A stretch of 64,000 nt of DNA, from positions 110,069-174,068 of the forward strand of contig OMXX01000024.1 of assembly GCA_900315105.1 (NCBI GenBank). Direction: 5' to 3'. A program made the position numbers and the translations under genes. The DNA comes from an uncultured Prevotellaceae bacterium. Lineage in GTDB: Bacteria; Bacteroidota; Bacteroidia; Bacteroidales; Bacteroidaceae. Below, one piece after another: positions 20,796 through 50,293 of the stretch. Every line of letters starts with the position of its first letter. The first letter of the stretch is position 1. The notes beneath the pieces are model-generated. The model was not told where the DNA came from. It did no database searches and was given only the letters and a program-made list of their open reading frames with translations.

Positions 20796-23519
20796 ATGGC
20801 AAAGAAAGACGGCGAACTAACGCCAATGATGAAGCAGTTCTACGAGTTCAAGTCACAGCATCCTGATGCCTTGCTCTTGTTTCGCTGTGGAGACTTCTAC
20901 GAAACATATTGTGATGATGCTGTGGATGCTGCTCGTATCCTTGGTATTACTTTGACTAGAAGAAACAATGGTGCAAGTCAGGGTGATGCTATGGCTGGCT
21001 TTCCGCATCACGCTCTTGACAGCTATATTCCAAAGCTTATAAGAGCGGGTAGGAGAGTGGCTATTTGTGATCAGCTGGAAGACCCCAAGCTTACAAAGAA
21101 ACTCGTGAAGCGCGGCATTACCGAACTTGTCACTCCTGGTGTGGCAATGAGTGATAATGTATTGGATTGTAAACGTAATAACTTTCTCTGTGCCATACAT
21201 TTCGGAAAATCTTCATGCGGTATATCTTTGCTTGACATAAGCACAGGAGAGTTCCTTGTTGATGATGGAACTTTTGACTATTTGGAAAAGATGCTGAGCA
21301 GTTTCCAGCCAAAGGAGATTCTCATAGAAAATGGCAAACGTCGTCTTTTTGAAGATTCATTTGGTAGGATAGGCGGAATTTCTGACGGAAGTCTTGTTTA
21401 TGACAAGATGGAGGATTGGGTGTTTACTGAACAGACAGCTCGCCAGAAACTTAATGCTCATTTTAAGGTGAAATCCATGAAGGGATTTGGTGTGGATAAC
21501 CTTACCAACGGACTTATTGCCGCAGGTGCCATACTCCAGTATCTTGAGCGTACTCAGCATACCCATGTAGGGCATATAATACGTATAAAACGTATTGATG
21601 CAGAGCGTTTTGTAAGACTTGATAACTTTACAATTCGCAATCTCGAACTGCTCGATTCTATGCATTCTGATGGAGCAAATCTTGTATCTGTAATTGATAA
21701 GACAGTATCTCCTATGGGTGCCCGTCAGTTGAGAAGATGGATTGTCTTCCCTTTGCGTGAGAAGAGGAAAATAGAGGAGCGACTTGACATTGTTGACTAT
21801 ATGTTCAAGTACCCTGATTTCAGATGCGAAATAGACGAAAACATACAGGCAATAGGCGACCTTGAGCGCATTTCTTCAAAGATAGCTACACGTAGGGTTT
21901 CTCCTCGTGAACTTATTCAGTTGAAGAATGCTCTTTCTGCCCTTATTCCTATAAAGCAACTTTGTCAGGATTCAGAGATTGATATCCTCAAAAGAGTAGG
22001 GGAGAGGATAGACCCTCTTACTGAATTAAGGGACAAAATAGAGCGTGAGTTAATGCCTGATCCACCGCAGTTGGTTAATAAGGGTAACGTAATCCGTGAT
22101 GGTGTTAATGCTGAACTTGATGACCTTCGCAATATCTCTACCTCTGGCAAGGATTATCTCTTGAAGATACAGCGTGAAGAGGCTGAACGTACAGGTATAT
22201 CCTCACTAAAGGTAGGTTATAACAACGTGTTCGGTTATTATCTTGAGGTAAGGAACACGTTTAAGGAGAACGTGCCACCTGAGTGGATTCGCAAGCAGAC
22301 ACTTGCACAGGCAGAGCGTTATATCACTCAGGAACTAAAGGAATACGAGGAAAAGATACTTGGTGCTGAGGATAGGATTCTTGCTCTTGAAACAACTCTT
22401 TACAATCAGCTTGTTGAGTCAATGCAGACATCAATAGAAGCTATGCAGATTGATGCCCAGATTATCGGAAATCTTGACTGTATGCTTTCATTCTCAAAGG
22501 TGGCTGTGGAGAATCGTTATGTGCGTCCTATTATCGAGGAGAGCAAGGAACTCGTCATCAAGGGTGGCCGTCACCCTGTTATTGAGAAGAACCTGCCTAT
22601 CGGCGAGAGCTATATACCTAATGATGTGGCTTTAATGGGTGGTGGACCCTCTAAATCTCCCTTAAAGGGAGACTTGGAAGGCGATAGCGGCTCTCTCCCT
22701 CTAAGGGAGAGCGGGGAGAGGGTCTCTCCTCAGATCATCATCATTACCGGCCCTAATATGGCTGGTAAATCGGCTCTGTTGCGTCAAACGGCCTTGATAG
22801 TACTGATGGCCCAAATAGGTTGTTATGTGCCGGCAGAGAGCGCGAAAATAGGTATTGTGGATAAGATATTCACTCGTGTTGGTGCAAGTGACAATCTCAG
22901 CGTTGGCGAATCAACGTTTATGGTGGAAATGACAGAGGCGGCGAATATCATAAATAATGCTACGGATAACTCTCTCGTTCTCTTTGATGAGCTTGGTCGA
23001 GGTACTTCTACTTATGATGGTATCTCTATTGCATGGGCTATCGTAGAGTATCTTCACGAGCATAGTGGGGTAGGGGCTCGTACTCTCTTTGCTACTCACT
23101 ATCACGAACTTAACGAGATGGAGAAGCATTTCTCACGTATCAAGAACTTCAACGTCTCTGTTAAGGAAATAAACGGAAAGGTCATCTTCCTTCGCAAACT
23201 TGTGGAAGGTGGTTCAGAGCATTCATTCGGTATTCACGTTGCACAGCTTGCCGGAATGCCTTCTGCTATTGTTAAGCGTGCCAACGTCATTCTGAAGGCT
23301 CTTGAAGAGGAAGGTAATCAGGTAGGAGCGGCTGGCAAGCCAGATATGACGGCTGTATCACAAAAGGCAAATGCTCAGACACAACTCTCTTTCTTCCAGC
23401 TTGACGATCCTGTTCTCTGTCAGGTAAGAGATGAAATCTTAGGACTTGATGTTAATAACCTCACGCCTCTTGAAGCCCTCAACAAGCTTAATGAGATTAA
23501 GAAGATAGTGGCACAATAA
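20796..23519 (+). CDS. mutS: DNA mismatch repair protein MutS with an in-frame palindromic-repeat insertion
   Basis: 907 residues. The mismatch-binding Phe-x-Glu motif is in [10 protein letters not shown] (near residue 30), the ATPase Walker A is GPNMAGKS (652-659), followed by GESTFMVEM and [15 protein letters not shown]. MutS recognises mismatches and recruits MutL. Between NDVALM and [10 protein letters not shown], where the family has only a short linker, residues 617-643 are encoded by an 80-bp GC-rich palindrome (peptide [18 protein letters not shown] and on). A nearly identical copy is in metH. The insertion lies just before the P-loop and the frame stays open, so the protein is probably functional, but this is untested. 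Confidence 0.95.
22645..22724. repeat. Palindromic element inserted in frame in mutS
   Basis: 80 bases from GACCCTCT to AGAGGGTC, with inner palindromes CTCCCTTAAAGGGAG and CTCTCCCTCTAAGGGAGAG. By hand alignment it matches the metH element at 31095-31174 (complement) at 75 of 80 positions, and both are read in the same frame. Confidence 0.92.
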
Positions 23520-28421: not shown

Positions 28422-31400
28422 TTACACATTAAAATACTTCAGCGGCGTATTAGCGAAGATGAGTCCGCAGATACTCTCGCCCGGGTTTATCATATTGCTC
28501 TCTGTGAGCGAAATGTCTATTGTCTTGTCTGCCTTTAGCATATCAAGCACAGGAACCTTTAACGCATGGTCAGGGCAAGCTCCATAGCCGAATGCCATTC
28601 TTATGCCGTCTGTGCCCCAGAAAAGGCGCTTCTGCATATAGTCTTGTATATACTCCGCAAATGCCTCTGCAAGACGGTCACAGAGCAGTTTTGCCATAAT
28701 TGCGTGATACTCGTCACCTTCCTTGCGATAGTTCTCCTGAAGCTCGCTAAGTCCAACACCCGCAGTTACCACAAACGGACAGATGAAATCAGTAGCGTGC
28801 TGTCCTTGGCAACAAGGGCAGTTGGTCAGTTTCCTTGCCCTATATCCTCTCATGATATGATCGGCAAGACAGTTGGTCTGCTCCTCATCTTTCAAAGAGC
28901 GAGGGAAGGGTAGGGTATAGTCCTTGCCATCGCAAGAGACAATTATCTCATCATTATCAGTAGAGTAGGCTGGAAGAATGCGAGCCGTTCCCTGAAGAGT
29001 GATAAGATTCTTCTCTTTCATCTCCTTTAGAAGAGCCTCCGCGTCACTACGCAGTTTCTGACCTTCCTCACCTGTACGGATATCGCCTTTCAAGCCCCAT
29101 GCCTGATAGAAGAAAGTCCAGTTGATACGGTCTTCCAACTCACTTATCCTGATGTTCTGGAAGTTGGTTGTACCGTTTTCCTTTGGCTGAGAATAGAGCA
29201 CCACCTGCTCCGTACTTCTCGGAACAGCCACAAGTTCCTGAGTCTTGATGAACCTGCGCTTTCTGCTTTCCTCAACCGTGAGAAGCGACTTATCAGCCTC
29301 CCTACGGTTATAGTTGTCGCGGATAATCTTCTGCTGAGCCTTTAGCTCTGCAATATATTCCTTTCCGTCATCTGCGAGAAGTCGGCGGATGATACCAGGA
29401 TTATCTGCTGCTGCATGAGCACAAATCACTATTCCGTGAGGATATTCTGGTGCAATCTTCACGGCTGTATGAAGTGCCGAGGTTGTAGCTCCACCGATGA
29501 TGACAGGCGTTGTCATACCCTTGCTTTCAAGCAGCTTCACCACGTTTATCATCTCTGTAAGGGATGGGGTGATAAGTCCGGAGAGACCTATGACATCGGC
29601 ATTACATTTCTGTGCCTCTTCCACTATCGTTTCCGGCTCTACCATCACACCGAGATCCTTCACGTTGAAGCCGTTACATTGTGTTACTACGCCAACTATG
29701 TTCTTGCCTATGTCGTGAACATCACCCTTCACAGTAGCCATAACTACTGTACCGGCCCCCTCCCTTCCTCCCCGAGGGGAGGAGTTTGTAGTTACCTCAA
29801 AACCCTCATTACTATCTAAAGACTCTCCCCCTTGGGGGAGTTGGAGGGGGGCCGTCTTCATATACGGCTCAAGAACGGCTACTGCCTTCTTCATCACACG
29901 AGCCGACTTTACTACCTGTGGCAAGAACATCTTACCCTCGCCAAAGAGCTTTCCTACCTGCTCCATAGCCGGCATGAGATACTCGTCAATAACGCCAAGC
30001 GGAGTGCCTGCCTTTTGGTATGCCTCAAGAGTATCTGCATCAATAGAATCTGTAATGCCCTTGAGCATAGCAAAGGCGATACGATCCTTGAGCGTGGTAG
30101 GCATCTCGACCTTCTTCTCAGGTGCCTTACCACCATTAGCCTCTTTCTTCGCATCAAGCTCTTCCTTGAGTTTTGTGGCAAACTCAATAAGGCGTTCTGA
30201 GGCATTCTCCTCCCCATTTAAGGGGGATTGAGGGGTTCTGTTGAGAATAACATCCTCCACGTATGTCCTCATAGGCTCTTCTATCTCGTCGTAGATAGTG
30301 AGCATGGCAGGGTTCACGATACTCATGTCAAGTCCTGCCTTGATAGCGTGATAGAGGAATACCGAGTGCATAGCCTGACGAACAGGGTTATTGCCTCGGA
30401 AAGAGAAGCTCAGATTACTTATACCGCCCGACATGTGCACCTCTGGCATCTCCTCGTGAATGGTGCGACAAGCCTCTATGAATGCTCGTCCGTAGTCATC
30501 ATGCTCTGGCATACCAGTTGCCACAGCAAGCACGTTAGGGTCGAAAATGATATCCTCGCCCGGGAAATCTATATCGCGAAGCAGCTTATATGCCCTTCGT
30601 GCCACTTCCACTTTTCTCTCGTATGTGTCTGCCTGTCCTTTCTCGTCAAAGAGCATAACGACCGTTGCAGCACCCATAGAGTGGATGTATCGGGCTTTCT
30701 TCAGGAACTTCTCCTCACCCTCTTTCAGCGAGATAGAGTTTATGATGCTCTTACCTTGAACACATTGTAATCCTGCCTCGAGAATCTCCCACTTTGAGGA
30801 GTCTATCATGATAGGCACCTTGGCAATCTCCGGCTCTGATGCTATGAGATTGAGGAAGGTGGTCATAGCTTTCACGCCCTCAATCAAACCATCGTCCATA
30901 CATACGTCTATGACTTGTGCGCCGGCATCTACCTGAGCTCGGGCTATTGACAATGCCTCTTCGTAGTTTTCTGCCTGAATAAGTTTCTTGAACTTAGCCG
31001 AACCAGCCACATTTGTACGCTCTCCGATATTCACAAAGCCTGTGTTCTCGTCAAGGAGAAGTGGCTCAAGACCTGAGAGGGTGCAGCGAGGAAAGACCCT
31101 CTCTCCGCTCTCCCCTAAAGGGAGAGAACCGCTATCGCCTTTCAAGTCTCCCTTTAAGGGAGATTTAGAGGGTCTCGGCTTAAACTCTTTTGCTACCTCT
31201 GCTATCGCCTTGATATGTGCCGGGGTTGTTCCGCAGCATCCGCCATAGATATTGATAAGCCCCTCGCTCATAAACTCCCTTGCCGAGTCAGCAAATGTCT
31301 CTGGAGTCTCGTCATAGCCACCCATCACGTTTGGCAGACCGGCATTAGGATGCACGCTTACCGGACATGGAGCTACCTCTGCAAGGCGCTTGAGCCAAGG

Positions 31401-32150
31401 CTTCAACTGACGGGCACCAAAGGCACAGTTCAGACCTATGCTTATCAGATTGCCATGTGTGAGAGAAGCCACGTATGCCTCTACCGTCTGACCAGAAAGC
31501 GTTCTTCCAGAGGCATCGGCAAGAGTACCGCTCGCCATGATAGGAACATCGATACCTCGCTCTTCTTCCACATTCATCACAGCCTTGATAGCAGCCTTGG
31601 CATTAAGGGTATCGAAGATAGTCTCAACAAGGATGACGTCCGCACCTCCGTCAAGAAGTCCGCGAACACAATCCGTATAGGTCTCAACAAGGTCTTGGAA
31701 AGTAACCTCTCGGGCAGCAGGATTATTTACATCTGCCGACATTGAGGCTGTCTTGTTCGTAGGGCCCATAGAGCCAGCCACAACTGTCCACTTTCCACTC
31801 TCTTCTTTACACTTTGCAGCTACCTCTGCAGCTGCCTTCGCAATGTCATACACCCTGTCCTCCAATCCATAGTCGGCAAGCGAATAGCGATTACAGTTGA
31901 AGGAGTTTGTCTCGATGATATCAGCACCGGCATTTATATAGTCGCGATGCATCTGCTTGATAGCCTCCGGTTTCGTTATGCACAGCACATCATTACACCC
32001 CTTTAAAGGTTGGGGGTGATTGCTGAATACCGTGCCACAAAAATCATCCTCTGTAAGCCCTAATTGCTGAAGATAAGTACCAGTTGCACCATCGAGAATA
32101 AGGATGCGCTCACGCATCTTCTCAAGAATATCTTTGCGAGTATGTGTCAT
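28422..32150 (-). CDS. metH: Cobalamin-dependent methionine synthase with three repeat-derived insertions
   Basis: 1242 residues from the ATG at 32150. Domains in order: homocysteine-binding (ILILDGATGTYLQQ; zinc ligands in GLNCAFGA and GGCCGTTPAH), folate-binding (FVNIGERTNVAGSAKF; INSISLKEGEEK), cobalamin cap and B12 domain (TVKGDVHDIGKNIVG with the axial His), and the SAM-dependent reactivation domain to the C-terminus. Three family linkers carry extra peptides from GC-rich palindromes: residues about 326-352 ([18 protein letters not shown]), 638-649 (TPQSPLNGEE) and 767-799 (TAPLQLPQGGES). All lie between domains or in surface loops. The promoter is almost on the ATG, suggesting a very short or absent leader. 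Confidence 0.96.
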   Translation of the reverse strand: MTHTRKDILEKMRERILILDGATGTYLQQLGLTEDDFCGTVFSNHPQPLKGCNDVLCITKPEAIKQMHRDYINAGADIIETNSFNCNRYSLADYGLEDRVYDIAKAAAEVAAKCKEESGKWTVVAGSMGPTNKTASMSADVNNPAAREVTFQDLVETYTDCVRGLLDGGADVILVETIFDTLNAKAAIKAVMNVEEERGIDVPIMASGTLADASGRTLSGQTVEAYVASLTHGNLISIGLNCAFGARQLKPWLKRLAEVAPCPVSVHPNAGLPNVMGGYDETPETFADSAREFMSEGLINIYGGCCGTTPAHIKAIAEVAKEFKPRPSKSPLKGDLKGDSGSLPLGESGERVFPRCTLSGLEPLLLDENTGFVNIGERTNVAGSAKFKKLIQAENYEEALSIARAQVDAGAQVIDVCMDDGLIEGVKAMTTFLNLIASEPEIAKVPIMIDSSKWEILEAGLQCVQGKSIINSISLKEGEEKFLKKARYIHSMGAATVVMLFDEKGQADTYERKVEVARRAYKLLRDIDFPGEDIIFDPNVLAVATGMPEHDDYGRAFIEACRTIHEEMPEVHMSGGISNLSFSFRGNNPVRQAMHSVFLYHAIKAGLDMSIVNPAMLTIYDEIEEPMRTYVEDVILNRTPQSPLNGEENASERLIEFATKLKEELDAKKEANGGKAPEKKVEMPTTLKDRIAFAMLKGITDSIDADTLEAYQKAGTPLGVIDEYLMPAMEQVGKLFGEGKMFLPQVVKSARVMKKAVAVLEPYMKTAPLQLPQGGESLDSNEGFEVTTNSSPRGGREGAGTVVMATVKGDVHDIGKNIVGVVTQCNGFNVKDLGVMVEPETIVEEAQKCNADVIGLSGLITPSLTEMINVVKLLESKGMTTPVIIGGATTSALHTAVKIAPEYPHGIVICAHAAADNPGIIRRLLADDGKEYIAELKAQQKIIRDNYNRREADKSLLTVEESRKRRFIKTQELVAVPRSTEQVVLYSQPKENGTTNFQNIRISELEDRINWTFFYQAWGLKGDIRTGEEGQKLRSDAEALLKEMKEKNLITLQGTARILPAYSTDNDEIIVSCDGKDYTLPFPRSLKDEEQTNCLADHIMRGYRARKLTNCPCCQGQHATDFICPFVVTAGVGLSELQENYRKEGDEYHAIMAKLLCDRLAEAFAEYIQDYMQKRLFWGTDGIRMAFGYGACPDHALKVPVLDMLKADKTIDISLTESNMINPGESICGLIFANTPLKYFNV
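29754..29853. repeat. Palindromic element inserted in metH (linker before the B12 domain)
   Basis: About 100 bases bounded by GGCCCCCTCCC and GGAGGGGGGCC. Inner palindromes CCTCCCCGAGGGGAGG and CTCCCCCTTGGGGGAG. Read as TAPLQLPQGGES... in MetH; the same peptide occurs in MnmG. Confidence 0.88.
30205..30240. repeat. Short palindromic insertion in metH
   Basis: CTCCTCCCCATTTAAGGGGG followed by ATTGAGGGG. Encodes TPQSPLNGEENAS where the family has a short loop after VEDVILNR. Confidence 0.65.
31095..31174. repeat. Palindromic element inserted in metH (homocysteine/folate domain linker)
   Basis: 80 bases from GACCCTCTC to GAGGGTC. Complement matches the mutS element (22645-22724) at 75 of 80 positions. 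Encodes [18 protein letters not shown] and following residues. Confidence 0.92.
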
Positions 32151-32157
32151 CAAGGTG

Positions 32158-34435: not shown

Positions 34436-34585
34436 TTATCCCGAGGTTTTATCTTGTTTTATCCCGAATCTTTATTTTGTTTTATCCCGAGTTTTTCGAA
34501 TTATTCGAATTATTCGGGATAAATTATTATTGGTGTCCTGTAAAAACAAAAACCAGAAAAACCCCAATCAATTAACAATTAATAA

Positions 34586-34836
34586 TTAACGTGAGTTCTA
34601 CGACTTGCTTTTGCTTGGTGAGCCATAGCGAACAATTCAATGTAAACGCATCTCCGATGCTGAACTGACAATAATTTTTCGCAAGGCTCAACAAGCTAAA
34701 GCAAGTTCCCAATCTTACCAATCTTTTACCAATAAAAAACTGGGCTTGCGCCCTGAGATGTGTTTTTTGAAAGTAAATTCTAAGAAAATTAAACCAGTAA
34801 ATTAATTTACTGATAAAATTTATTGCCTCACGTTAC
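34586..34836. repeat. MITE-like element 2 (TTAACGTGAG ends)
   Basis: About 250 bases bounded by TTAACGTGAG and CTCACGTTA. The interior (GCTTGGTGAGCCATAGCGAA..., and a block with CAGTAAATTAATTTACTG) is nearly identical to element 3 at 37660-37904. Confidence 0.82.
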
Positions 34837-34844
34837 AATATCAG

Positions 34845-35000
34845 TCTGGAAGGCTGTACCTGATTAGCGATGTACTGCCCTCCAGGCAGTTAGATGGGGT
34901 TGGCATTATATCCCCGCACATCCTCGTTTCACTCATATGTACGGGGTTACTAATGGTGTTGCCTTCCAGGCAATTCCATATTTGCGAAAGTCGAATACTA
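34845..35000. repeat. REP-like hairpin cluster
   Basis: Contains CTGGAAGGC ... GCCTTCCAG inverted words around GCCCTCCAGGC and CCCCGCACA / TGTACGGGG. Lies between element 2 and the GTGCAC tandem unit in the 928-base gap 34436-35363. The stretch 34436-34585 shows only a repeated TTTTATCCCGA word. Confidence 0.55.
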
Positions 35001-35059
35001 ATTTTTCGTTTCTTTCGTGTTTTCCGTGTTCAGAATAATTTTTCGCGAAAGATTTGCGA

Positions 35060-35229
35060 GGGGGGGGTGCACTTTGCCATTATTTTAGGTGTAACATACT
35101 GAAAATCAAATAATAAAGATGAGTGCACCCCCCTTAAAAAGGAGGTGTTTTTTAGGGGGGGGTGCACGCTGTGTAAAATGTTGATAATCAATACATAAAA
35201 GCTGAAAAATCGCGAAAGTGTACCCCCCC
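35060..35229. repeat. Tandem pair of GTGCACCCCCC-bounded units
   Basis: Unit 1 runs from GGGGGGGTGCAC (35061) to GTGCACCCCCC (35133); unit 2 from GGGGGGGGTGCAC (35155) to GTGTACCCCCCC (35229). Both are about 75 bases with similar AT-rich centres (GTGTAA...TGAAAATCAA). A duplicated small inverted-repeat element. Confidence 0.8.
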
Positions 35230-35309
35230 TCTACAAACTCTTTGAATTTTTTTATTCTCGTTGATATTTTCTCTTCTCTAACCCCCCTATTGCCATATAG
35301 CGAAAGGGC

Positions 35310-35346
35310 AAAAAAATCCCTACTCCGAGGGGGAGTAGGGAAAAAT
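35310..35346 (-). terminator. Terminator of the fimbrillin-like gene
   Basis: Arms TCCCTACTCC and GGAGTAGGGA (35317-35341), with a T-run on the minus strand. Confidence 0.85.
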
Positions 35347-35363
35347 TCATAATATGTTAAGTA

Positions 35364-37163
35364 TTATCTGTACATAACGCCACGAATCATAAGACCTGCA
35401 GCACGTTCTCCATTGAAAAGATTTCCTGACTCAGAAGCTACTACATCCACTTTAAGAGCTTTGGCCTTATAGGAATCAGCTGACTCTGATGCTAAGTTTC
35501 GAGTCCAATAATAACCATATGTTGTATTTTTGGGATTATCATTACTTTCGCTTTCCTTACTTCTAAACCTATAGCCTTTAAGAGGAAGTATAATATAATG
35601 CCCAGTAGTCCTATTCTTGAACTTATATTTGGTATTATTACTACCAGCAGCAGGTCCGGCAACCAAAGGTCTGTCTGAATGCACAAACTGATTATTCTTG
35701 TCAATAGTAGTAGAAGAATTTATCAACGTCTCAAAATCAGCCGAAGTTGGAATTCTCCATTTTCCATTAGACTTTTGGTAAGCAGCATCATCTGCGACTT
35801 CCAATACAGTTTTACCATCGGTTACTCCAGAGCCCCAGTCAGTAATGGTACCACCACCATAAGTACTATATGAATTATATTTGAGCAACAAACCATATTG
35901 GGTACGTTGAAAAATCCCCGCAATGTAATAACTATAAATAAACTCGTAACGATTTTCTGCATCGGCCGCATCATTTAATGCGCCTGGACCAAGTCCGTAT
36001 TTATAACATCTCTTATTCAAATTTTTAGTAATGTCACTATTGCTTGAACCTTCGCCAATACCATAGTCATAATACCAAGAATAATATTTACATTTATCAA
36101 CTTTAGTTTGATTAGCTTTTACAGAAGTCTCACCCCAAGAATAGAATGAATTCTCATCAGTAAAGCCATCATCATAAATATTCTCAACACACCACAAAAT
36201 AGACTTGCCTTCAGAATTGGTAAGTCCGAGATCCACATAAGCCTCTTTAGCACAAGCCTGTGCAGTAAATGAACCGAGGTTTATGATTTCTGATTTGCCA
36301 ATAGTATAGTTCGCTTTAGTATTGCTACGCTCATAAATAGCCCCATCCTCTGTATTCTCGAATGTAAGCGTAAAGCCGCCAGTCAAAGTGGCAGGAAGAA
36401 CAGAAATGTAATAAACACCTGTAGCAAGGGCAGAACCATCAGAATTGCTAATGACAATCTCACTACTACCACCAGATGTGATACTTGGTGTTCCGATAGT
36501 ACCATCATCACCAATAGAAGCGGTAAATGTTCCTGCTATATTTTCACCATTAATAGCCTTGAAATGAATCTTGCGAATTGCAAAATTAGCATAGTTGTTA
36601 TCTGCAAGATTAATCTTTATCAAAGACATCGCATTCTTGAGCTTAAAAGTATTCTCAGTAGTGTAACCTGTCATGAAATGATACTCAGGATGGAATCCTG
36701 CGGTATAATCCACTAAGGCAGAAGGTATTGTAGCAGAAATTGTTGCAGAACCATTACTTGCTGTAAGGGTTGGCGCACCAGTTCCTGTTAAGGTAGAGCA
36801 ATATAGAGCAAAGAACTTATCGCCTGCATTTTTGGTAATAGTTCCATCAAAAACTCCTTGACGTTGACCTACGTATTCATTACTTTTCAGATCGAAGAGA
36901 GCATTAGCTGGGGTAGTAGCATTATAGATATGCAACTGATCACCAGATGACCATACCGGGTATGGAACGTCAGCATCAGTAATCAACGTGGTACGAGTAG
37001 CCTTTGAAGAGCCAGAATTGCCTGTCTCTATGGTTGCTGAGAAACTCGTAGATGTGTTTTCTACTGGTGTCAAAGACTCGGTTGTGTCCTTGTCATCATC
37101 AGAAGAGCAGGCAACCAAAGCTATGGCTGCAAATGCCCAAATAGATTGCTTTATGTAATTCAT
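35364..37163 (-). CDS. Fimbrillin-family lipoprotein with C-terminal FISUMP-like domain
   Basis: 599 residues from the ATG at 37163 (MNYIKQSIWAFAAIALVACS); this start gives a proper lipobox (LVACS, Cys19), while the longer frame to 37280 overlaps a small upstream gene. Residues about 40-330 match the Mfa-like/fimbrillin pattern (ATRTTLITDADVPYPVWSSG, a series of strands, ATGVYYISVLPATL). From about residue 345 (YVDLGLTNSEGKSILWCVEN ... FYSWGET ... WRIPTSADFETLI ... GYYWTRN) it resembles the Fibrobacter succinogenes major paralogous domain. Probably a surface-exposed lipoprotein; function unknown. Co-transcribed with the 51-residue peptide gene. Confidence 0.82.
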   Translation of the reverse strand: MNYIKQSIWAFAAIALVACSSDDDKDTTESLTPVENTSTSFSATIETGNSGSSKATRTTLITDADVPYPVWSSGDQLHIYNATTPANALFDLKSNEYVGQRQGVFDGTITKNAGDKFFALYCSTLTGTGAPTLTASNGSATISATIPSALVDYTAGFHPEYHFMTGYTTENTFKLKNAMSLIKINLADNNYANFAIRKIHFKAINGENIAGTFTASIGDDGTIGTPSITSGGSSEIVISNSDGSALATGVYYISVLPATLTGGFTLTFENTEDGAIYERSNTKANYTIGKSEIINLGSFTAQACAKEAYVDLGLTNSEGKSILWCVENIYDDGFTDENSFYSWGETSVKANQTKVDKCKYYSWYYDYGIGEGSSNSDITKNLNKRCYKYGLGPGALNDAADAENRYEFIYSYYIAGIFQRTQYGLLLKYNSYSTYGGGTITDWGSGVTDGKTVLEVADDAAYQKSNGKWRIPTSADFETLINSSTTIDKNNQFVHSDRPLVAGPAAGSNNTKYKFKNRTTGHYIILPLKGYRFRSKESESNDNPKNTTYGYYWTRNLASESADSYKAKALKVDVVASESGNLFNGERAAGLMIRGVMYR

Positions 37164-37182
37164 CTTATTAAATCTCCTTAGT

Positions 37183-37338
37183 TTATTCCCATCCGTCACG
37201 AACTGTAAATCCCTGCATTCCGTCATCCTCTTGTTGGCTCTGAGGATTCTCCTTTGCAGGTACTGTGAATGATTCAGCAATCATCTGTGCAGTCTTCAAC
37301 TGATGAAATTTCATAGTTGGTTCTTCATACTTTTTCAT
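37183..37338 (-). CDS. Small 51-residue peptide upstream of the fimbrillin-like gene
   Basis: ATG at 37338, TAA at 37183-37185. The product starts MKKYEEPTMKFHQLKTAQMI and ends GMQGFTVRDGWE. It has no signal peptide; the middle is Gln/Glu/Asp-rich. The stop lies 19 bases before the fimbrillin-like ATG, and a promoter at 37439-37446 precedes it, so it leads a two-gene operon. Short MKKY-type peptides beside surface-protein genes occur in Prevotella, but I know no assigned function. It could be a leader peptide, a chaperone-like partner or a modified-peptide precursor; none is shown. Confidence 0.65.
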   Translation of the reverse strand: MKKYEEPTMKFHQLKTAQMIAESFTVPAKENPQSQQEDDGMQGFTVRDGWE

Positions 37339-37403
37339 AAGTGCAAAATTTTTAAGTGTTTATTTATGATTTATTTTTTTCGGGGTTATTAATTTCGGCG
37401 TAT

Positions 37404-37446
37404 AGAAAACCCATTTTTAAAAATCGGTTTTCTGAGTACAAAGTTA
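37404..37446 (-). promoter_or_regulatory. Promoter of the peptide/fimbrillin operon with a palindrome at the start of the transcript
   Basis: Minus-strand TAACTTTG at 37439-37446. Immediately downstream, 37404-37431 is a 28-base near-perfect palindrome (GAAAACC...GGTTTTC around ATTTTTAAAAAT). It may be an operator or a leader hairpin. Confidence 0.5.
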
Positions 37447-37659
37447 TATATTTTTGTATATATTTCCAAGAAAATGGACGAAAAATTGCTTTTTTAGTGT
37501 GTATTTCTAACAATTATCTATGAATTTTGCTGTTTTTCTTATAAAATAGCACTAATTTCTTAGTTTTTTTGCGTTTTTTCTTAGAATACTGAAAGGAAGG
37601 GAGATACGGAAATGCTCGCTTGCGCGAGGGTGGGTTTTGGAAAGCAAATTGGAAATAAA

Positions 37660-37904
37660 TTAACGTCAGTTCGACGACTTGCTTTAGCTTGGTGAGCCAT
37701 AGCGAACAATTCAATGTAAACGCATCTCCGATGCTGTACTGACAATAATTACCAATCTACGCAATCTTTTTCCAATAAAAAACTGGGCTTGCGCCCTGAG
37801 ATGTGTTTTTTGAAAGTAAATTCTAAGAAAATTAAACCAGTAAATTAATTTACTGATAAAATTTATTGCCGCTGCTGTTAGGTCAATTTATCGAACTGAC
37901 GTCA
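37660..37904. repeat. MITE-like element 3 (TTAACGTCAGTTCGACGA ends)
   Basis: About 245 bases from TTAACGTCAGTTCGACGA to TCGAACTGACGTCA. Internal sequence almost identical to element 2, including the perfect palindrome CAGTAAATTAATTTACTG. It fills much of the gap 37447-37947; the rest shows nothing clear. Confidence 0.82.
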
Positions 37905-48192: not shown

Positions 48193-50214
48193 TTATCTGC
48201 CCATCAAGACAAGCAAGACGTTGATGTCGCTTGGTGAAACGCCCGGAATACGTGAAGCCTGTGCAAGGGTCTCTGGATTGATGTTTTCCAGTTTCTGACG
48301 TGCTTCTGTGGAAAGACCTTTCAGTTCGCTGTAATCGAAATGCCCTTGAATACGGATGTTCTCAAGTCGGTGCATCTTTTCAGCGGCTTGTTTCTCGCGC
48401 TCGATATAACCTTGATATTTTATCTGTATCTCGGCAGTTTCGGCAATTTCCTGTCTGCGATTTGCCGGACGGTTGATAATCTCTTTCAGATGAGGTAGAG
48501 ATTCTGCGAGCCATTCGATCGAGATTCCTGGACGTGCTATGAGCTCGTGGAGCTTGCATCCATAATGGAGAGGGGTAGAACCGATGCTTTCAAGAGCAGC
48601 GTTCACTTCCTTTGGCTTTACGTTGGTTCTGTTGCAGTAATCGATGATTTCTGCAATATGCTCCTTTTTCTCCTGCCACCAGGCATTTCTCTCGTTTGTG
48701 GCAACGCCAAGTGCGTAGGCACGTTCTGTGAGGCGGGCATCAGCATCATCTTGACGAAGAAGAATACGATATTCTGCACGTGAGGTGAACATACGATAAG
48801 GTTCATCAACACCTTTTGTAACCAAATCATCGATGAGAACGCCTATATAAGCCTCGTCTCTGTGAAGGATGAGAGGGTGATAGGTGCTAGGTGATGGGTG
48901 TTCGGTGTTGGTACTTCCTGCGAAGATAGCGGCATTAACACCGGCAACCAAACCTTGACCAGCAGCCTCTTCATAGCCTGTTGTTCCATTTACCTGACCG
49001 GCAAAGAACAATCCACTTACCTTCTTGCTCATCAGCGAGTGGTCGAGTTGGGTAGGGTCAAAGTAATCATACTCTATGGCATAGCCCGGGCGATATACCT
49101 TCACATCTCTAAGAGCCGGAATCTTCTTCAGAGCCTCAAGCTGAACTTCGATAGGCATAGAACTTGAGAAACCATTTAGATACATCTCATTGGTGTTAAG
49201 TCCTTCAGGCTCAAGGAATAGCGGATGATGATCCTTGTCAGGAAATGTCACGAGTTTTGTCTCTATGGAAGGACAATAACGTGGACCAGTGGATTGTATC
49301 TGTCCGTTGAAAAGGGGCGAATCTGCAAGTCCGCTCTTAAGAGTCTCGTGTACTTCCTCGTTTGTCGTGAATGTCCAGCAAGGAAGGAAAGCGTCGTTAA
49401 GGTCTATTTTTGATTCGTCCTTGTTCAGACGCAGATATTCCTTCATATAGGAGAAGCTGTGATAGTCGTGCTCTCCCGGCTGGAGTTCTGCATCCTCAAA
49501 ATGCACGGACCTCTTGTCGATTCTTACCGGAGTTCCGGTTTTCATCCTTGCAGAGCGGATGCCAAGAGCGTTAAGACATTCTGTCAGATGAGGAACTGGA
49601 AGTTCGGCACATCGTCCGCCAGGAACCATTTTCCTGCCGACGTGCATGAGTCCGTTGAGGAAAGTACCGGCTGTAATGACTACTGTCGAGGCTTTTATCT
49701 CTACACCCCAGATGGTTCTTACGCCTATAACCCTCGCCTTACCTCTTTGAGGATAGGATTTTTTTGTAATATCCTGAGCGTCAATACATTCAGAAGACTC
49801 TCCCCCTTGGGGGAGTTGGAGGGGGGCTGTTAGTATTTCCTCCACCTGATCCTGCCAGATATCGAGATTCTCAGTAGAGTCGAGCAATTCACGCCATTTC
49901 CAGATGAACTGTCCGCGGTCGCATTGAGCGCGAGGACTCCACATGGCAGGACCCTTTGAGCGATTGAGCATACGGAATTGAATGGAAGTAGCATCAGTCA
50001 CAATTCCCATACCGCCACCGAGGGCATCTATTTCGCGGACAATCTGTCCCTTCGCAATACCTCCAACGGCAGGGTTACACGACATCTGTGCAATCTTGTT
50101 CATGTCCATAGTGATGAGGCAGGTTTTAGCCCCCATTCTTGCTGCAGAATGAGCAGCTTCGCAACCGGCGTGGCCACCTCCAACGACTATGACATCGTAA
50201 TATAGAGTTGTCAT
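48193..50214 (-). CDS. mnmG: tRNA uridine-5-carboxymethylaminomethyl modification enzyme MnmG with a repeat insertion
   Basis: 673 residues from the ATG at 50214 (MTTLYYDVIVVGGGHAGCEA); the frame is open to 50283 but the earlier part is not family sequence. FAD motif GGGHAGCEAA, MSCNPAVGGIAKGQIVREID, and the C-terminal tRNA/MnmE-binding part (SRAEYRILLRQDDADARLTE; ISPETLAQASRIPG-like end). With MnmE it modifies U34 of several tRNAs. Residues about 130-160 (TAPLQLPQGGES...) come from a palindromic element shared with metH, which explains a length above the usual 620-640. Confidence 0.96.
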   Translation of the reverse strand: MTTLYYDVIVVGGGHAGCEAAHSAARMGAKTCLITMDMNKIAQMSCNPAVGGIAKGQIVREIDALGGGMGIVTDATSIQFRMLNRSKGPAMWSPRAQCDRGQFIWKWRELLDSTENLDIWQDQVEEILTAPLQLPQGGESSECIDAQDITKKSYPQRGKARVIGVRTIWGVEIKASTVVITAGTFLNGLMHVGRKMVPGGRCAELPVPHLTECLNALGIRSARMKTGTPVRIDKRSVHFEDAELQPGEHDYHSFSYMKEYLRLNKDESKIDLNDAFLPCWTFTTNEEVHETLKSGLADSPLFNGQIQSTGPRYCPSIETKLVTFPDKDHHPLFLEPEGLNTNEMYLNGFSSSMPIEVQLEALKKIPALRDVKVYRPGYAIEYDYFDPTQLDHSLMSKKVSGLFFAGQVNGTTGYEEAAGQGLVAGVNAAIFAGSTNTEHPSPSTYHPLILHRDEAYIGVLIDDLVTKGVDEPYRMFTSRAEYRILLRQDDADARLTERAYALGVATNERNAWWQEKKEHIAEIIDYCNRTNVKPKEVNAALESIGSTPLHYGCKLHELIARPGISIEWLAESLPHLKEIINRPANRRQEIAETAEIQIKYQGYIEREKQAAEKMHRLENIRIQGHFDYSELKGLSTEARQKLENINPETLAQASRIPGVSPSDINVLLVLMGR
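49733..49828. repeat. Palindromic element inserted in frame in mnmG
   Basis: The strong arm CTCCCCCTTGGGGGAGTTGG (49800-49819) continues to GGGGGGCTGT; the weak partner arm is near CTTACCTCTTTGAGGATAGG (49739-49758). The first 36 minus-strand bases match the metH copy at 29754-29853 with one difference. Confidence 0.88.
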
Positions 50215-50293
50215 TTTTTTTAAATTTTCTACAAAAGTAAGAAGAAATTTTGAATTTTCAAGTAGAAAAGTTTGTTTTATCACTATTTTTAAT

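Follow-up and report, generated by a model that had tools for sequence, protein, structure and literature searches.

A short palindromic repeat read in frame within mutS, metH and other genes of Prevotella-like Bacteroidales

How do mutS and metH, two unrelated genes of one contig, come to encode nearly the same peptide? The window, by which we mean the whole stretch of 64,000 nucleotides analysed here, derives from an uncultured Prevotellaceae bacterium and holds a palindromic element of 80 bp (GACCC...GGGTC) at 22645-22724 on the forward strand, in frame in mutS (20796-23519, forward strand, 907 aa), and a second copy at 31095-31174 on the reverse strand, in frame in metH (28422-32153, reverse strand, 1243 aa, with at least three insertion slots); each copy encodes 26 residues. 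A preliminary description had reported these near-identical palindromes, their common reading frame and their placement directly before the Walker A motif of MutS and between the homocysteine and folate domains of MetH, all of which was borne out. The mutS copy and the complement of the metH copy are identical at 75 of 80 positions, their similarity as an inverted repeat pair extends over 87 nt at 93%, and both adopt the same double-hairpin palindrome. A 17-base piece of it occurs three times in the window when up to three mismatches are allowed (0.19 expected). The mutS copy folds as DNA with -22.4 kcal/mol (z -4.5) and the metH copy as RNA with -49.1 (z -6.2), values reached by none of 200 shuffles in either case; at the gathering score, Rfam families gave no match in the window.

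In the MutS protein, for which the Pfam MutS domains were found with domain V starting at residue 648, the insert comprises residues 618-643 and ends eight residues before the GPNMAGKS motif, which starts at residue 652. The MetH insert starts at residue 328, between S-methyl_trans (18-320) and Pterin_bind (377-614). A solved MutS structure (7ai6, which we take to be the E. coli protein) has six residues at the loop site, compared with 34 in the MutS of the window. We presume the insert-bearing loops to be exposed and the proteins to be functional; the structure model of MutS, with a mean pLDDT of 62 and about 27-49 in the insert blocks, is too poor for judging loop exposure.

The architecture of the unit was derived from 58 aligned full copies, 29 of 78-81 bp and 29 of 68 bp. 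Two inverted hairpins (TCTCCCTTAAAGGGAGA and CTCCCCCTTTAAGGGGGAG type) are enclosed in an outer stem of 8 bp (GACCCTCT/AGAGGGTC), giving unit lengths of about 68 or 80 bp, alongside which half units of about 30 bp exist. The alignment consensus reads GACCCTCTAAATCYCCCTTAAAGGGRGACTT, a variable spacer, CTCCCCCTTTAAGGGGGAG and GAGAGGGTC, the uniformity of the first hairpin being partly a product of the search, in which this hairpin itself was the query. The named structure pairs 97.4% of the cells, against at most 69.6% when it is slid along the alignment. In both hairpins paired changes were seen in the first alignment, from T-A to C-G in 6 of 29 copies and from C-G to T-A in 4 of 29, and the corresponding test was mixed: the observed number of further pair types was matched by 500 of 500 shuffles, and the number of pairs changed on both sides was reached by 289 of 500. 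Each strand of the consensus offers a single open frame; the two encode KSP(L/F)KGDL-like, nearly identical peptides, and an insert surviving in a gene therefore adds nearly the same hydrophilic peptide in either orientation.

The element is by no means confined to the two window genes. We collected 178 distinct sites (two in the window, 62 in the genomes of relatives and at least 114 from a genome scan), counting identical sites once, since some genomes may be the same assembly twice, and classifying them by a codon model trained on the window genes. Forty sites lie in frame within coding DNA. All of them read the KSP(L/F)KGDL frame, apart from some point changes, and the first hairpin is antisense in 28 and sense in 12; some of the 40 are orthologous or share a slot, mutS contributing three and a GH3 enzyme and CobQ two each. 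Five further sites, all at ORF ends, have coding flanks on one strand with no open frame through: three are in frame but contain a stop, and two have differing frames on the two sides. The remaining sites lie between opposite genes (4), have one coding side (59) or have none (70). Some spacer copies of the carrier genome G088 (L086, 780-858; L092, 1501-1579; L099, 1046-1123) sit centrally in A-/T-rich flanks bearing ATGAAAA-type repeats in inverted order, and the place corresponding to L086 in the genome G001 has similar flanks, the palindrome core being absent.

Host proteins are diverse. Thirty of the 38 host ORFs besides the two in the window were scanned and all 30 match Pfam, the insert lying inside a single Pfam domain match in at least 10 of them. 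They include GcpE/IspG, a CobQ-type protein, an RNA methyltransferase, MetH at another place, three ABC proteins (ABC-F layout), two class I tRNA synthetases, histidyl-tRNA synthetase, a Mur-ligase family protein (read as FolC), a pseudouridine synthase, phosphofructokinase and five glycosidases; copies read as lying within ProC and DapF were classed as one-sided and stand outside the 40.

Wherever coding DNA was recognised on both sides of one strand, the frame was nearly always kept (40 of 45 sites). This regularity argues against an assembly error that joined repeat copies into genes, a suspicion that deserves mention because repeats do cause misassembly. Moreover, the same mutS insert recurs in separate assemblies, namely in two other MAGs (G088, locus L047, and the MAG of L140) as well as in the protein clusters P0124-P0133, among which P0129 may equal the L047 record. 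We regard misassembly as very improbable and have rejected it.

The figure of 40 is likely a floor, because of 1491 stretches drawn at random from the scan loci the classifier calls just 594 in frame. Against this same rate, in-frame copies in the scan loci (23 of 114) are about twofold fewer, a deficit which points either to a high tolerance or to an insertion that is not blind. In simulated insertions of the 68-bp unit, an additional 1 bp left the frame open at 81 of 351 coding sites, while the unit with no additional base did so at 0 of 332 and with 2 bp at 0 of 351; roughly one in four insertions of suitable length thus preserves the frame. Selection alone may well explain the kept frame.

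Within the Bacteroidales the distribution is patchy. A MutS-type match was obtained in 39 of 40 relatives and the loop was readable in 29 of the 30 loci fetched; in this one draw of relatives the palindrome peptide was present in 0 of the 29 loops. Even the MutS of G001, which is 95% identical to that of the window, has a different filler there. Among the best 120 MutS homologs of nearly 8000 scored, 10 carry the palindrome, and the best 120 MetH homologs, likewise of nearly 8000, include 17 with full and 3 with reversed half units. At E <=1e-4, matches were obtained from 13 of 200 genomes within the genus, from 24 of 301 within the family (covering 8 of 30 genera) and from 1 of 395 across the phylum, namely from G001, the nearest relative; these counts are floors, since at most two to four candidates were scored per genome. 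Carriers hold several copies each, with 41 matches in G088 (where 40 of the 50 candidates were scored) and 17, 25, 14 and 7 in four others. At least 120 contig stretches match, and 118 of the 120 listed belong to Bacteroidales by title, the other two being an 'uncultured bacterium' and a Mucilaginibacter; most of these titles name gut or rumen samples or a rumen MAG series (RUG, presumably for rumen). The Mucilaginibacter match, to the first-hairpin pattern, is in Mucilaginibacter endophyticus (L236) and, lying outside Bacteroidales, speaks against a family restricted to that order.

These data bear on a further explanation, by which the peptide is an ancestral domain or linker lost in relatives. 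Its near identity in MutS and MetH would suit such an origin, but the 29 MutS loops free of it and the presence of the element in many unrelated genes and spacers, in both orientations, speak so clearly against it that we have rejected it and consider its probability close to nil. The proposal of the preliminary description, a spreading palindrome tolerated as a linker, is in turn supported by the patchy dispersal, by the in-frame presence in many unrelated genes and by the absence from the same sites of many relatives.

What occupies these sites in relatives lacking the palindrome goes beyond that description: other repeat families use the same slots. The MutS slot contains the palindrome in the window and in G088, and a CAACACC-type heptanucleotide array in G001; in IspG, the palindrome of G088 and a CAACACC-type array of G001 occupy the same spot. 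For MetH, identity to the window protein was computed outside the slots (18 of 121 proteins compared). Proteins 98.6-99.2% identical carry the palindrome at the linker, one of 99.0% (P0030) has a heptanucleotide-array linker in its place, and others have a short linker (P0054, 97.6%) or a half unit (P0021, 96.3%). Two further MetH slots and a slot of MnmG show the same variation of fillers, the three MetH slots varying independently of one another, so that near-identical proteins differ in slot contents. Comparison of the window with G001, for which 34 of 44 ORFs were alignable (8 without a match, 2 too distant), gave 8 indel blocks across the 34 orthologs, of which 5 fall in mutS and metH, 2 at gene starts and 1 elsewhere; among internal blocks of at least 4 residues, mutS and metH account for 5 of 6. 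As close relatives hold unlike repeats there, such loops appear to be places in proteins where repetitive DNA settles.

The palindrome is thus one of several repeat families inserting in frame in proteins, and further members, on which the preliminary description was silent, are present in the window itself. D7-type palindromes are found in frame in metH before the B12-binding domain (29756-29855, reverse strand, peptide APLQLPQGGESLDSNEGFEVTTNSSPRGGREGA) and in mnmG (49731-49830, reverse strand, peptide APLQLPQGGESSECIDAQDITKKSYPQRGKARV), the latter gene (48193-50283, reverse strand, 696 aa) also containing an in-frame heptanucleotide array (48875-48909, reverse strand, peptide NTEHPSPSTYHP). 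The third metH slot has a short palindrome (30207-30235, reverse strand, TPQSPLNGEE), which is absent from G001 and G128. In the 1.96 Mb of G001, D7-type palindromes occur at 12 places, 9 of them in open frames of at least 120 residues (3 of these 9 no more than 25 residues from the frame start). A single pattern for the CAACACC-type array has 20 matches in the same 1.96 Mb, 16 of them in open frames of at least 120 residues; 11 of the 16 lie well inside the frame and 5 within 9 residues of its start, maybe upstream of the gene. GC-rich hairpins with arms of at least 8 number 42 in G001 and the window together, about 5 being expected by shuffling, with 4 in frame, 3 of which are those of the window; for longer arms, G001 has 25 against 4 by shuffling, with 1 in frame. 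In-frame hairpins are therefore few, and G001 is not flooded with palindromes.

Other repetitive DNA was also observed. Heptanucleotide arrays (CAACACC, GTCAAAG and other 7-bp units) occur in frame in unrelated genes (G001 L290-L389; window 48875-48909). At a low score cut-off the commonest array periods in G001 and the window are 7 (388), 11 (372) and 9 (270), with 86 period-7, 44 period-11 and 170 period-9 arrays in ORFs of at least 150 residues. Further short repeats of the window, D1 (25941, 28360, 43835, 55542), D6 (7775, 20736, 27242) and D11 (15153, 25833, 43740), are located at or near gene ends by the ORF list. Positions 34584-37870 contain two direct repeats, one of 93 bp and one of 122 bp (96% alike), their copies about 3.05 kb apart, which enclose an ORF (35364-37280) whose best match among the G001 stretches is 32% identical; the region is possibly an inserted unit.

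Do the contents of the slots arrive by a moving unit or by copying? Searching the joined flanks against the other loci and the 1.96 Mb of G001, we saw no clean empty site at DNA level among the displayed pairs; relatives show replaced or shortened loops, and one near-empty site retains a remnant of the 3' end of the unit. With the loop of unit-free relatives either shortened or of different sequence, insertion and replacement look alike here. A turnover of loop cassettes without any transposon has therefore to be taken seriously, the more so as the loops look replaced and unrelated repeats share slots: template switching, illegitimate recombination or DNA uptake would bring copies of intergenic repeats into loops that tolerate them, and homologous recombination would exchange slots between strains, the palindrome being only one filler. 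The unrelated fillers of the MutS, IspG and MetH slots, the palindrome or array in MetH proteins 98.6% and 99.0% identical to that of the window, the independent variation of the three MetH slots and the lack of a target duplication all fit such a turnover, to which we give a chance somewhat below even. That the ends (GACCC...GGGTC) are constant and the length classes few among unrelated sites argues instead for a unit moving as such.

Movement as a REP or REPIN by a tyrosine (Y1, RAYT) transposase acting in trans would agree with the two short hairpins in inverted array, with the solo halves and again with the missing target duplication, for which the 75 full copies show no excess from 3 bp upward (at one offset among many tried, 8 two-base matches against 2.7 expected were found, which we do not accept as real). 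Y1_Tnp is encoded in 4 of the 7 carriers searched and also in G001, and in 11 of 58 copies, all from G088 and G128, the spacer contains a GTAG next to the first hairpin. On the other hand, the element is absent from 15 of 15 Y1 loci even when 7 mismatches are allowed (14 genomes searched), three of the seven carriers (G198, G151 and G047, whose drafts are incomplete) gave no Y1 match, and GTAG is missing from 47 of the 58 copies, including both of the window, and CGTC from 57 of 58, which makes this enzyme an unlikely mover. As to an autonomous parent, the matches between loci look like ordinary orthology, and no insertion sequence with the same ends was seen among them.

We therefore favour, with good though not complete confidence, a non-autonomous short palindromic repeat of Prevotella-like Bacteroidales that spreads, is filtered for frame, is tolerated as a linker and is then decayed or swapped. 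The unit would spread to new sites in genes and spacers alike; within genes, mainly frame-keeping insertions would survive; these would persist in loops and between domains as tolerated linker peptides, and later they may decay or give way to other repeat DNA. Of the mobility proposed in the preliminary description, dispersal and the in-frame presence in many genes are confirmed, and that the palindrome actively moves as DNA, with the help of some enzyme, is what we infer from them. More tentatively, a general process might write intergenic repeats, palindromes and heptanucleotide arrays alike, into fixed protein loops as exchangeable in-frame cassettes, and do so faster than substitution, so that MutS, MetH, MnmG and IspG of near-identical strains differ mainly there; we consider this possible, if rather doubtful.

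A review of 2024 held the same way of protein evolution to be conceivable in prokaryotes other than Rickettsia (PMC10969869). The present element offers a rich case in gut bacteria, in which many carriers and strains allow the gain, loss and exchange of inserts to be traced. It makes testable how proteins gain new linkers, and also whether a loop beside the ATP site of MutS alters the mutation rate between strains.

In comparison with known systems, the palindrome works like the Rickettsia palindromic elements (RPE) and the intragenic REPs; we assign it to neither, because neither the REP tag at the hairpin end nor a Y1 gene flanked by the repeat nor a target duplication was found and the RPE were compared by description only. 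Literature surveyed by title and the opening of the abstract, mostly outside subscription journals, describes no such family; the titles include papers on MITEs of Porphyromonas and Cardinium and on a Prevotella intermedia genome. MITEs (RUP, NEMIS, ERIC) are non-autonomous elements with inverted ends and open frames that fuse to genes (PMC2229807). The palindrome shares all these features and differs in that its 75 full copies show no target duplication of at least 3 bp. Intragenic REPs are hairpin dimers, mostly intergenic, with some in repair genes and tRNA synthetases, and recB of two Xanthomonas has different REPs at about the same site (PMC3733652). The same survey, from 2013, found REPs inside genes of several species besides Rickettsia, counted RPE-4 and RPE-6 as short REPs and names Bacteroidetes among the phyla with CGTC repeats (PMC3733652). 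Our element resembles them as a hairpin dimer of which some copies lie within genes, those for repair and for tRNA synthetases among them, but it differs from GTAG/CGTC REPs in lacking the tag at the hairpin end (GTAG, in 11 of 58 copies, lies in the spacer, and CGTC occurs in 1 of 58) and from REPs or REPINs with a RAYT in that no Y1 gene is flanked by the repeat (0 of 15 Y1_Tnp loci).

In-frame palindromes are best known from Rickettsia. RPE are short palindromes located between genes and also, in frame, within unrelated conserved genes, and an RPE-bearing guanylate kinase is translated and active (PMC2229807, PMC10969869); their length is 105-146 bp, with terminal inverted repeats (PMC2229807). 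The likeness lies in the in-frame presence in unrelated conserved genes as well as in spacers, here with 40 of 178 sites in frame. The units described here have 68-80 bp with an 8-bp outer stem, against those 105-146 bp, although RPE-4 and RPE-6 have been counted among the short REPs (PMC3733652); their hosts are gut Bacteroidales and not obligate intracellular Rickettsiales, and their slots also take heptanucleotide arrays. Short tandem repeats of heptanucleotides are familiar as the STRR of cyanobacteria, and the other slot fillers are likewise built of 7-bp units, unlike the palindrome, which shares with the RPE its place in frame within proteins.
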